IMG/VR virus record: IMGVR_UViG_3300021961_000042
Span: 41,564-105,563 of that record
Length of the DNA: 64,000 nt
From: a virus
Reading direction: 5' to 3' (one strand)
Both the position numbers and the translations under genes were made by a program. Shown here piece by piece: positions 3,001 through 63,630 of the stretch. Position 1 is the first letter of the stretch, and every line of letters begins with the position of its first letter. The notes beneath the pieces were generated by a model. That model was not told where the DNA came from and did no database searches. It saw nothing but the letters and a program-made list of their open reading frames with translations.

Positions 3001-4698
3001 GAAGATTCGTCAAAATTCGCTAGGGTTTTTTCACCTGCATATCATTTAGATTATTTAACAGATAATGTTATGATAAACAAACAAAGATTAGTTTTTAGAA
3101 GTGACAGATTACCAACATCTACTACAACAGAAGTTAATGGAAACACTTCTTATTCACTTTTCTTAAATGATAATTTTGCAATATATAGAATTTCAGATCA
3201 AGGCATATTGGAAGGTCTTACTTATCAAATAAACCAACAAACAGACACTACAAACAATTTTCAAGATTTTGCTGATGATAACTCAAGTCAAGTTAATGAT
3301 GCGATTCTTAATACTTTGACATGTGAAGGTTTAAAACCACTTGATTGTTATGTTGGACAAGGAACCTCTTTTTCTGTTTCAGACCCATGTCCGACAAATG
3401 AAGACACTAGTTTATCAACACAAAGAGTTATTGGTGGTTGTTATTATTTTGTACAAGAACCATTTTTTAAAGTTGAGAGCATTAAAAAAGACATTAACTT
3501 TTTTGCTGAATGGAAAGCAAGATTTAGATTTACATATGCGGCATGTAGAGGTGTTATAAGTCATGTATTTCAAAATAATTGGGTCAATGGAAGTCTATAT
3601 ATGTTCCCAATAAAAAAACAAACAATATTTGATATACAAGGAAACCCAACAAAAAGAATACATTGTGGATCAAAAGATACTTTTTACAGTGATCAAGGAC
3701 CAGTTTACTACAACGAAGATTATAACGGATATTTTTATAGAGCAACACCGTATAATCAAACAAATGGTTTCATAGGTCAAAAACCTAAATATTTTGATAC
3801 CACAACAATAACATGGATAGATGCTGAACCTAAGTTTAAGGGAATGAATAAAAGAAATATCCATTTCCCAACAACAATAATGGATTTAGGGGCTAGAGAT
3901 CAATTCGCAAAAGAAATATGTTTTAATCCTGAACTTGAAGGGTATTTAATAGAAACAATAAAATCCACATCATTTAATGAAACTTCAGACATACTTCTAT
4001 TTTTTATTTTATCAAGACTACTTAGCTCAACTAACGGACAAAGATTGATAGGTTCTGGAGACGCGTCAATTAATACTATATTTAGTAGAAGTGAAAATAG
4101 AATAGACGGAGATTTGGCCCAATTATTCAGTATAAATTCAGAGTATGGTATTGTACCATTTAATGATCAATTTTATGATGATTTTGATATATATTTAGAT
4201 TCTCAAGGTAGTGCATTAATTGGAATTTTCTTTAGTGCCGATACCAAAAATAGAATACTTTTAACTCCTGGCATTAATACGTTTGGCGCCGTACAACAAC
4301 TCATACCATATCCAAAAACACAAGAAGTACCTTTTTACAAATGGAGAAAAGTTGACCCACAAGCGTCAACACCTAGTGACCCACAACCCGCACCAACAAT
4401 TTTTGGATCTGAATTAAATGATTGGAATACCGATTTACAAACAACTAATAACTTGTATTCGGTAAAATACCAAACAATGTCATTTAATGGTACGCCTTAT
4501 TTTCAATCAACTAATGGAAATAACACCGGATATATAATTAACTATGGAGTTAATGGACAACCAACACCAACACCTTCTCAAAATCAAGCAACTGATTCAT
4601 TTATTGTTGGTGCCCCTTACCATTTTTATTTTGGGTTAAATAAAGGAAAAAGTGCAATGAACAGGTACATATCAAAATATATAGTAGGTCAAGAATAA
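1..4698 (+). CDS. Very large virion protein with delta-60 beta-propeller repeats (5' partial)
   Basis: The frame is open from base 1 with no stop, so the gene starts left of the window; the first internal ATG is at 157. At about 1090-2250 there are seven repeats of the delta-60 / DUF5122 type: a stretch like DGKVVVGGGF, then a G-x-x-R-L-x-x-DGSID-x-x-F unit. These are known from bacterial secreted proteins and are thought to form a beta-propeller. The flanking regions are rich in N, T, S, Y and F, as phage tail and fibre proteins usually are. The stop overlaps the next ATG (TAATG), so it is the first visible gene of a translationally coupled structural operon. A tail-tip, baseplate or receptor-binding role is inferred from context only. 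I recognise no specific T4 homologue. Confidence 0.8.
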   Translation, partial: LNLIFDILFVIIIGICNALNWVRRKFNLSELNCPDSNPIRLDDRTFPRLSLPMMGYPDCEACTCETYEMAQDLSDPIYAVERINYSVLIDSNSAGEYTWTELQEYQKLISPAYCNTFDTCEIDEQSFFFGINQGFAGYSGPYTQLSKTNVVVWPKQDSRVGALGYTPNWSHILNKLNSRGAYFENGTFIKTTVKNINPQTNVEQPSEPFLDLPLILICDEGTLQQLGGAGQLLTFTDITKINDPNLTGATLNQFGTLGVTGTTSNNQSNLITINESFITPGLQLSAATLHLKLTEQTKDYKFPAGVEYFQIITGGTLNQFEQIADIYSQYGVLRNFVYETGIKFRWGNGYFTAEDWGGRFSNQVTSIDVDLNNNIIVGGQFEYYSQSTTNFNNGNLTSGIVKLSNSDGSVDADFGNGSGYGSYDSGFGTGVVMALETQSDGKVVVGGGFDTYWDAGNQSTGLGSIVRLNDPYGEIDTTFNFGGSGFQGPFILNVKAIKIQPADQKILVGGSFASYNGTLINGLIRLETDGSIDSTFVSNLGSGISGAEGVWSIDLLSDGRIVVGGDFTTVNSNSYNNIVVLNPNGTIDTNFIVGSGFDVKVFSVKVDSNDNIFVGGEFTTYNGNLAPKLTKLLSTNGNIDSSFVLDPSINTALSNNTNFLIKTIELDTFNNNILIGGLFSIEGRNNIMRITNNGGTDPTFNSNFNWGTLVSVIKFLPDNSICVGGNFGPNVNENTANIRRITNSGTKFTTININNQIPFNTWHNVAQGYNAYPKFFFENFGNKEIIFLTRGTDPYTQKQTIEYDLSVLFGLSYDTVKVKGEYYLNVPIKPNFVNQSGQNASTTNLPWQEPGISNSLWYGGGTTPESHDVINNNNPILFHKPYNNFNIPTSSWTAFTNNSLKYYNSTDKSRVNHVAFPGDSKNIGNFTQNFGRESTVSYQYVNGKNTIGIQWSQGDPPSTIPTTPDYYVNSNVGDPVYKQGNIEGASFLAADFSPGEIFDLEDSSKFARVFSPAYHLDYLTDNVMINKQRLVFRSDRLPTSTTTEVNGNTSYSLFLNDNFAIYRISDQGILEGLTYQINQQTDTTNNFQDFADDNSSQVNDAILNTLTCEGLKPLDCYVGQGTSFSVSDPCPTNEDTSLSTQRVIGGCYYFVQEPFFKVESIKKDINFFAEWKARFRFTYAACRGVISHVFQNNWVNGSLYMFPIKKQTIFDIQGNPTKRIHCGSKDTFYSDQGPVYYNEDYNGYFYRATPYNQTNGFIGQKPKYFDTTTITWIDAEPKFKGMNKRNIHFPTTIMDLGARDQFAKEICFNPELEGYLIETIKSTSFNETSDILLFFILSRLLSSTNGQRLIGSGDASINTIFSRSENRIDGDLAQLFSINSEYGIVPFNDQFYDDFDIYLDSQGSALIGIFFSADTKNRILLTPGINTFGAVQQLIPYPKTQEVPFYKWRKVDPQASTPSDPQPAPTIFGSELNDWNTDLQTTNNLYSVKYQTMSFNGTPYFQSTNGNNTGYIINYGVNGQPTPTPSQNQATDSFIVGAPYHFYFGLNKGKSAMNRYISKYIVGQE

Positions 4699-58073: not shown

Positions 58074-59888
58074 ATGAAAAAACTACTTAAAGAATCCGGT
58101 ATAAGGGACATAAAACAAATTGCCAAAAGATATAAAAAGGCTAAAATTTATTTTCACCAAGACTTAGATGGTGTAACAACCGCTTTGGCTATGAAAAACT
58201 ACCTTGAACAAAATGGGATCAATGTAGTTGATGCTGAGGTTATACAATACGGTGCTAAAGAATTTGCTATTAAAAAACCTGAAGGTGAAGGTGACGTGAT
58301 GCCGGTATTGGTTGATTTTGCTCACGGAAAACCGATGTTTGTTATCCATACCGATCACCACGATAGTCAAGCCGGTGTTGAGGGAGATACTGCAACAAGT
58401 TTTAGACACGCAAGATCTAATGTCGAAACAATATCACAGATATTATCACCAAAAGAAATTTTTACCGCAGACGACATATTATTAATCTCAACAGTTGACT
58501 CAGCAAACTTTGTTGCAAATAATATAACACCAGAAATGGTTATGAACTACCTTTTCAAATATGATAAAAATGAGTCTTTGAAAAGAAATAAAATGTTAAT
58601 GGGGCTTGTTGTTAATAAATTACTTTTAGCATATAAAGGAAAACCAAATTTTTTAGAAGAAATTGTTTTAAATGCAAAACCATCCCTTTTAAGTATTCTT
58701 AATTTTATAAAAAAAGTGGCATTAGAAAAAGGGTACGCAACCCCTGAAATGATGACAAAAAATACTGAAGATTATGTTCAAAGTAGAAAAGAATCTGGAG
58801 TTGAAAGAACAGGTAGCGTATTATCTCAATACGGTTTTGGTTCGGCAACAAAACCAGGATCATATGATAGATACACACCATTTAGAAATAATCCTGATGC
58901 CGACTTCTTAGTTACAGGAATGCCTTTTGGTAGTGTTCAAGCATCTTGTAACCCATTCAAAGAAAGTAGATCACTCAAAGGTATAAATTTAGGTGAAATA
59001 AAGGATCAAGTTTTATTAGACTTCAAACCAGAGTTAGAAAAACAAATATTAACATTTAGAACAATAAAAAGAATTGCAGAAAAAGAAGCAACAAAAGAAT
59101 CTGTAGGATTCACCTCAAAAGATATGATGGCCCTTTATGGTTCAATGCCATCTTACGATCCAAACACACAATCAATAAATGGTTATGATTTTTTAGTTGC
59201 AAACTCAGGAGGACATAAATGTATTACTAATATTTCAGGAATTAATTTTATGTATAGTGGTTACGACAAACCATACACTAAAGATTTACCAAAAGAAGCT
59301 ATACCTATTGCTTTTTATGAAGGAGATAATAACTTTATTAAAGATATTAAACAAAAACTTTTAAGATTTAGAAAGTTATCTGAAAAACAAATACAGGCGG
59401 CAATTAGTGGAATGAAAAGAGAGGGGATCAATACAGACTCATTAATGAATGTAAAACAAGAAAGAGGTTTTTTAGATTTAGTAAAAGAAATGAAAGACAG
59501 GTTTGTTGATATTTTAAATCAAAAAATGAATTCAGAAAATGAAAGTATTAATGAAAGTTATGATAAAAAAGATATTGCAACATTATTAAAAAAACACGTT
59601 AAAAAAGAAAAAACATTAAATGAAAACGATTGGAATTATATATTAAAAAAAGTTAATGGTGTTATTGATAATAGAGGACAGTGGGAACATCCCGGAAAAT
59701 GTACAATGATTGAAAGTAATACTATTACCATGAAAAATGTTGATTACCCTTTAGTTGGAATAGACAATACAGGACAAATGAAATTAATGTTACCAAACAT
59801 GAATTATGAATTTCCCGGAGAAAAAGTATTTGAAATACCTTGCATGGGTAAATATAAAAATCTTGCAATAGAACTATTAAGAATATGA
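58074..59888 (+). CDS. DHH-family phosphoesterase, putative packaged cargo (604 aa)
   Basis: The leader MKKLLKESGIRDI contains L-K-E. The enzyme core has Y-F-H-Q-D-L-D-G-V-T-T near residue 25, PVLVDFAHG near residue 82, and HTDHHDSQ near residue 96. These are the metal-binding motifs of the DHH superfamily (RecJ, nanoRNase, c-di-nucleotide phosphodiesterases). The C-terminal half is unrecognised. Substrate could be a nucleotide second messenger or short nucleic acid. It overlaps the GNAT gene by four bases. Confidence 0.8.
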   Translation: MKKLLKESGIRDIKQIAKRYKKAKIYFHQDLDGVTTALAMKNYLEQNGINVVDAEVIQYGAKEFAIKKPEGEGDVMPVLVDFAHGKPMFVIHTDHHDSQAGVEGDTATSFRHARSNVETISQILSPKEIFTADDILLISTVDSANFVANNITPEMVMNYLFKYDKNESLKRNKMLMGLVVNKLLLAYKGKPNFLEEIVLNAKPSLLSILNFIKKVALEKGYATPEMMTKNTEDYVQSRKESGVERTGSVLSQYGFGSATKPGSYDRYTPFRNNPDADFLVTGMPFGSVQASCNPFKESRSLKGINLGEIKDQVLLDFKPELEKQILTFRTIKRIAEKEATKESVGFTSKDMMALYGSMPSYDPNTQSINGYDFLVANSGGHKCITNISGINFMYSGYDKPYTKDLPKEAIPIAFYEGDNNFIKDIKQKLLRFRKLSEKQIQAAISGMKREGINTDSLMNVKQERGFLDLVKEMKDRFVDILNQKMNSENESINESYDKKDIATLLKKHVKKEKTLNENDWNYILKKVNGVIDNRGQWEHPGKCTMIESNTITMKNVDYPLVGIDNTGQMKLMLPNMNYEFPGEKVFEIPCMGKYKNLAIELLRI

Positions 59889-60694: not shown

Positions 60695-60725
60695 TTGTCT
60701 AATTAAAAAAAAAGACTTAACTTTG
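60695..60725 (+). promoter_or_regulatory. Bacteroidota-type promoter for the large RNA
   Basis: TTG at 60695-60697 and TAACTTTG at 60718-60725 have 20 bases between. No ATG in a credible frame follows; structured RNA begins within about ten bases. Confidence 0.65.
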
Positions 60726-60732
60726 TAAAAGA

Positions 60733-61761
60733 TTCGAAACCACAGGAGATGAAAGATACTCGTTGTCGAATTAGAGAAAACGTTCTTTGAAAAACTAAAA
60801 CCGACAGAAATAGTCGTCACAATTATGAAAAGCGAATTAACACCTCCCTTTCTTTAAGTGTGAAACTAAATTAAGTCATTGGGCCGTGTATGGTCCATTA
60901 AAATAAACCACGAAAGTGGGATAAAGTGAACCTAACGTGTAATAGGTTTGCGTCTTGGTGAGTCTTCGGACTTGTTGAGGTCGAGTACACAAGCGGGATA
61001 CCGTTTAACCTTTAGTACCGAGGGCAACGCTGTAGGGAAAGTGGTTAGATGAACTGGCAATGTGGGTTGTCAGTTTGAGGTGGGAACACCAAGAGGAATA
61101 ACCCGTAGGAACGATGCAAAAAATAAGGTTATCCAACTTTATCATTGCGTCCTCCATTATGATAGGGTACTTAAAACCGAAAGGTATGTTCGTGTACAGG
61201 TGGTGCTGTTACCAACCCTAATGATTCCTTACCAAAGGAATTGTTTTGAAGTAGTCTTGAAATATGGAAATGGGGACATTTCACGGAGTAGTTGAGTATC
61301 GACTCGTTCAAAAGATGGGTTGGCTCGGGTGACGGACCACTACTTCGACAATCCACAACACAAATACTTTATGGAAAGTAATGATTCTATTATTAACTAC
61401 AGAAAGGAAAAGTGTCCGTCAGGTTTGGATGAAAGGTGACTACATAGTAATGAGCCGTTCATTGCACACAAGGATCCCAAGTCTGAGTGTAATTATCCGA
61501 AAAACCTTTAGTCCCGCAAGGACGAACTGGGGAGGCATCCTCGGAAAGAGTCAAGTAAGGTGAGAGTAATCCAAACCTCAAGGAGTGATTCACCTAAATA
61601 ATCGTCACTGAGGAATACTTCTCAAAAGGAAGTGGATAAGAGTAGAATAAATAATGACTCTAAAGGTTCTCAATAACAGGTGTAATCTCAGCCTTTTTTT
61701 AAAACATGATTACTGGTAAAAAAAATTGAATGGATAGTAAAAAATTATTATCCATTTTTTT
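60733..61761 (+). ncRNA. Large structured non-coding RNA (about 1 kb), GOLLD/ROOL-like candidate
   Basis: About 970 bases without a credible gene, visibly richer in G and C than the surrounding coding DNA. Visible hairpins include CCAC-GAAA-GTGG (60908-60919), AACCTA/TAGGTT (60929-60948), AGTC-TTCG-GACT (60961-60972), AAGCGG-GATA-CCGTTT (60991-61006), CTGGCAA/TTGTCAG (61054-61073), GGTG-GGAA-CACC (61079-61090), ACC-GAAA-GGT (61176-61185), ATTCCTT-ACCA-AAGGAAT (61224-61241) and GAAATG-GGGA-CATTTC (61267-61282). A ten-pair long-range helix joins 61421-61430 to 61569-61578. Many stems carry GNRA or UUCG loops. The 3' end is a T run near 61694-61700 or the terminator at 61729-61761. Size and phage location near a tRNA recall GOLLD and ROOL RNAs, but I cannot assign the family. 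Confidence 0.75.
61729..61761 (+). terminator. Rho-independent terminator
   Basis: AATGGATA pairs with TATCCATT, followed by a T run. It lies 28 bases after the T tract at 61694-61700 and may terminate the large RNA. Confidence 0.75.
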
Positions 61762-61781
61762 GTGCATTAAAATTTTTTGTA

Positions 61782-63543: not shown

Positions 63544-63617
63544 GGTCCCGTAGCTCAGCTGGATAGAGCAACTGCCTTCTAAGCAGTAGGTCAATGGTTC
63601 GAATCCATTCGGGATCA
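63544..63617 (+). tRNA. tRNA-Arg (anticodon TCT)
   Basis: Seven-pair acceptor stem (GGTCCCG/CGGGATC, one G-U), a D arm with GCTC/GAGC, an anticodon stem ACTGC/GCAGT with loop CTTCTAA, and a T arm AATGG/CCATT around TTCGAAT. The anticodon TCT reads AGA, a major Arg codon in this AT-rich genome. The 3' CCA is not encoded (A then CAAA). Confidence 0.95.
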
Positions 63618-63630
63618 CAAATAAATTAAC

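Follow-up and report, generated by a model that had tools for sequence, protein, structure and literature searches.

The GOLLD RNA and its surroundings

The window, a 64-kb stretch of a virus record of 105563 bases, contains a segment that the initial annotation had read as a phage giant RNA of the GOLLD or ROOL kind with its own promoter. An Rfam scan of the window matched positions 61284-61694 of the plus strand to GOLLD (RF02032) with 323.4 bits (E 7.6e-92; curated cut-off 150 bits) over the whole model, positions 1-416, without truncation, and GOLLD was the sole Rfam family matched at E <=1 between 60400 and 61900. The GOLLD and promoter parts of the earlier reading therefore stand and its ROOL part falls away, RF03087 being ruled out by the lack of a covariance-model match at E <=1. 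The full-length match, 323 bits against a cut-off of 150, also disposes of the suggestion of a divergent member or a new class. Running the Rfam check for introns and rRNA, as had been advised, returned neither in the segment, ruling out both identities.

Only the conserved 3' part of the RNA is represented in the Rfam model. The less conserved 5' domain lies directly upstream, at 60879-61283 (+), and is homologous and covarying in 23 clusters, into which 122 loci were grouped (<90% identity over the first 400 nt of this domain); its homologues occur in about 100 of the fetched IMG/VR loci, the majority of which also carry the 3' domain. Together both domains span 60879-61694, or 816 nt, in agreement with the >800 nt expected of GOLLD. 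Carriage by a phage and proximity to tRNAs, another trait of these RNAs, are also found here: a tRNA-Arg (TCT) is located at 63544-63618 (+), 1.8 kb downstream as had been noted and, as far as can be told, outside the GOLLD transcript, and relatives of this GOLLD have tRNAs or a tmRNA nearby as well. The segment is a clear GOLLD member, ordinary and high-scoring as an RNA.

GOLLD also occurs in two uncultured huge phages (LR745206 and LR756502) and in Sinorhizobium phage Phosso (L292, PV764938), where the RNA (3044-3512, 186.6 bits), unannotated in the record, encloses a tRNA at 3109-3180. A scan of genome contigs for GOLLD ends gave six matches, none of them GOLLD and three overlapping TPP riboswitches; the plasmid search gave no match, and a phage blastn with the L243 locus matched mostly tRNAs. 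Upstream of the RNA, a gene for a protein of 604 aa (58074-59888) adjoins GOLLD in many relatives; DHH-like motifs (DLDG, DHH) can be recognised in it by eye, and it has no match in Pfam or PHROGs. GOLLD was found in 20 of 40 records carrying a relative of this gene, many of which are short fragments.

The fold was evaluated in an alignment of 23 divergent sequences (mean column identity 72%), the consensus structure of which has 182 predicted pairs. Two-sided compensatory changes, that is, at least one sequence changed on both sides with pairing kept, occur in 126 of these, so that the proposed search for covariation in homologues turned out amply positive. The ten-pair long-range helix described earlier (61421-61430 with 61569-61578, spanning 61421-61578, plus strand) is exact in the window and belongs to the GOLLD fold: eight of its ten pairs show two-sided changes, and one pair occurs as G-C, C-G, U-A, A-U and U-G. 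The single sequence folds more stably than 20 dinucleotide shuffles (z -3.6), and hairpins with GAAA and UUCG loops, also reported before, are present (e.g. CCACGAAAGUGG and GUCUUCGGAC). The segment is richer in G+C (about 0.41) than its surroundings (0.24-0.33) and free of genes, both as first described. Its longest plus-strand run without stops is 80 codons, against 41-131 in the 22 relatives, and no reading frame is conserved among the 23, which rules out a protein-coding reading.

The promoter-hairpin-boxA leader

A Bacteroidota-type promoter precedes the RNA at 60695-60725 (+), with TTG at 60695-60697, a spacer of 20 nt and TAACTTTG at 60718-60725, as the initial annotation had it; the -7 box recurs upstream in most relatives, TAnnTTTG standing before boxA in 20 of the 23 GOLLD clusters. 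Between this promoter and the 5' domain lies a leader of about 150 nt (60726-60878), outside the GOLLD RNA as described. It begins with an AT-rich start region (TTTGTAAAAC), where many host leaders have TTTGCAnCCC after the box, followed by a hairpin at 60731-60772 (+) with arms GATTCGA/TCGAATT, which stands where rRNA leaders have boxB; its sequence differs among the relatives, and a stem forms in nearly all clusters. Downstream of the hairpin, at 60782-60792 (+), is GTTCTTTGAAA, which occurs exactly only once in the window. This element had been missed by the earlier reading, which otherwise stands as to a GOLLD-like RNA and its promoter.

The core 9-mer GTTCTTTGA is present within 260 nt upstream in 22 of the 23 GOLLD clusters (dinucleotide shuffling of these leaders, which ignores ancestry, predicts 0.055), LR756502 being the sole cluster without it. 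An open count of all 9-mers ranked it at the top of the leaders, above the promoter. The 25-26 nt flanking it on each side have 39-41% identity between clusters, and between 19 and 127 nt separate it from the 5' domain. Relatives share the arrangement TAnnTTTG, hairpin, GTTCTTTGA(AA), GOLLD. Among the viral loci fetched (2.75 Mb, both strands), 34 of the 42 distinct GTTCTTTGAAA sites lead a GOLLD.

Of 19 16S leaders from hosts, 18 have the same core behind a TAnnTTTG box and the remaining one has GTTCTTTGGA; they come from Hymenobacter, one genome of which supplied three, and from genomes belonging to the same order as a Flavobacteriales genome. Placed after promoter and hairpin and before the RNA, GTTCTTTGAAA has, by its sequence, both the position and the form of a Bacteroidota rRNA boxA. 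The type of promoter and boxA also suggests that the host of this phage is a member of the Bacteroidota. As a gene, the GOLLD described here is new through its rRNA-type boxA leader, the RNA itself being already known; no paper linking GOLLD with boxA was found among the open-licence papers searched, in which those using both terms are plant papers.

Further down the leader, the stretch AACACCTCCCTTTCTTTAAGTGT (60840-60866) is kept in near relatives and resembles a second boxA core (TTCTTTAA); it presumably also resembles the 3' end of 16S rRNA. At the other end of the gene, a T-run (61694-61700, plus strand) directly follows the last GOLLD hairpin, and a likely intrinsic terminator, AATGGATA...TATCCATT plus T (61729-61763, plus strand; hairpin at 61729-61756), comes after it, bearing out the T-rich terminator sequences seen earlier. 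A T-run within 16 nt of the end is found in 16 of the 23 clusters, and a terminator-like hairpin within 120 nt downstream in 17.

boxA at other GOLLDs and other phage RNAs

The gamma-proteobacterial boxA consensus is GYTCTTTAANA (PMC5725501). In GOLLDs of another type, which have -35/-10 promoters, this proteobacterial boxA occurs behind the promoter in three of 24 distinct sequences (0.03 expected); in a fourth (L240), a hairpin is followed by GATCTTTAAAA. The exact motif is absent from the other 21 of the 24, as it is from the long RNA of phage ICP1 (HQ641347, L328): the segment 12098-13108, which contains this abundant RNA of about 800 nt, lacks boxA and matches no Rfam family at the curated cut-off. 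Since these 21 GOLLDs, LR756502 and the ICP1 RNA all do without the exact motif, GOLLD as such needs no boxA.

A search with a shorter boxA motif revealed promoter-boxA leaders also before phage tmRNAs, tRNAs and one small RNA. Three tmRNAs near GOLLD have a TATATTTG promoter and boxA on their 5' side (L069, 5157-5554; L050, 7397-7787; L025, 3111-3521), and such leaders precede tRNAs in L046 (+2019; tRNA-Leu at 2048), L053 (+2041; tRNA array from 2158) and L290 (+1306). The small RNA is an RNA-like conserved segment of about 190 nt (L018, 3246-3440) whose core is AGTCTAGGTCCGTAGGGCTAC...GTGAGGAAAGTGACTACGGGAC. It is preceded by a promoter-hairpin-boxA leader of its own, also lies upstream of GOLLD in L013, L031, L052, L010 and L060, with little variation among copies, and has no Rfam match. 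Among 20 chromosomal tmRNAs of the hosts, GTTCTTTGA occurs in only one, and GTTCTTT abuts the GGGG start in three more; a boxA before tmRNA is therefore not a general habit of the hosts.

A possible role for the host antitermination machinery

The closest known counterpart of this RNA is GOLLD env-38, with a 5' region at 1-420 and a 3' region at 421-833, which a cryo-EM structure shows as a hollow 14-mer (PMC12286853). Both share a 3' domain over the full model, a 5' domain, a length of about 820 nt, covarying stems and a long-range helix. Phage location and a nearby tRNA are GOLLD-like too, although this tRNA lies 1.8 kb away and outside the RNA, and the promoter-hairpin-boxA leader with its Bacteroidota-type promoter sets the locus apart from env-38. 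ROOL is likewise a cage-forming giant RNA of phages and of similar size, but the segment does not match it.

The leader itself resembles those of bacterial rRNA in the order promoter, hairpin, boxA and in carrying the boxA of Bacteroidota 16S leaders, but it leads a phage RNA instead of rRNA and its start region is AT-rich. In E. coli the rRNA leader has the order boxB-boxA-boxC, boxA is reported to be necessary and sufficient for the antitermination complex, and help of this complex in co-transcriptional folding has been proposed for rRNA (PMC10250234). No boxC was recognised in the GOLLD leader, nor, by eye, a leader-trailer helix at GOLLD like that of pre-rRNA. boxA is also known outside rRNA, at suhB and other genes (PMC5725501), likewise on non-rRNA transcripts, but there it leads protein genes.

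Together with the RNA family, the covarying fold and the leader layout, the fact that the motif is identical to host rRNA boxA suggests that the phage probably borrows the NusB/S10 antitermination complex of its host to make, and perhaps to fold, this long untranslated RNA. Host RNA polymerase would start at the TAnnTTTG promoter and transcribe the hairpin and boxA; NusB and S10 (NusE) would bind boxA and switch the polymerase to antitermination of the rRNA type, enabling it to finish the untranslated RNA of about 816 nt despite Rho or internal pauses. As a further step beyond antitermination, the rRNA-type complex may improve folding of the transcript, which would then adopt the GOLLD structure and, by analogy with env-38, may assemble into a cage.

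The same leader could have been captured from a host rRNA operon by a plain GOLLD gene and inherited since then without serving any function today. The Bacteroidota-type GOLLDs may all descend from one ancestor, and the layout of host 16S leaders is similar; yet the 9-mer has been kept while its flanks have dropped to about 40% identity and its distance to the RNA has varied from 19 to 127 nt, the AT-rich TTTGTAAAAC contrasts with the TTTGCAnCCC found in many host leaders, and the same leader unit also stands at other phage RNAs, all of which makes capture without function highly unlikely. A purely structural or processing role of GTTCTTTGAAA, for instance in nuclease cleavage or in the fold itself rather than in Nus binding, draws on its invariance, which leaves covariation silent on its pairing. 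The variable distance, the unrelated RNAs downstream and the occurrence of the same sequence as host boxA in the equivalent position argue against it, and we regard it as very unlikely.

Alternatively, an abundant boxA-bearing RNA could act as a decoy, titrating NusB/S10 off the host rRNA operons and so leaving the phage with a larger share of the capacity for transcription or translation. Identity with host rRNA boxA is consistent with this, as are the observations that a large phage RNA can be the top phage transcript, as in ICP1 (PMC7567579), and that, in a study to which PMC12286853 refers, ribosomes were pulled down with GOLLD. However, boxA lies outside the described GOLLD and stands beside the promoters of quite different RNAs (tRNAs, tmRNA), as would be expected if it served the transcription of these RNAs themselves, and a decoy function appears unlikely. 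Both the decoy and the structural roles are less well supported than antitermination. With regard to the role of the RNA in infection, the GOLLD of a Lactobacillus prophage is described, in work cited in PMC7567579, as accumulating in lytic infection and yet being dispensable.

A broader reading, which we hold tentatively and with slightly more doubt than belief, is that phages generally place a host rRNA antitermination leader before stable RNAs (GOLLD, tRNA arrays, tmRNA, the small RNA), with boxA adapted to the phylum of the host, and that the machinery for transcribing and folding rRNA would in this way build an RNA cage. Nothing was found in the literature searched on how long untranslated RNAs like GOLLD escape Rho or fold in vivo. 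The promoter-boxA signature offers a simple sequence tool for finding structured RNAs in Bacteroidota phages, and has so far led to tmRNAs, to tRNA arrays and to one small RNA without an Rfam match. These findings add phage non-coding RNAs, which the published boxA survey left out (PMC5725501), to the transcripts that carry boxA, and the presence of host rRNA boxA in the leader provides a direct and testable link from GOLLD to NusB/S10 and rRNA biogenesis.
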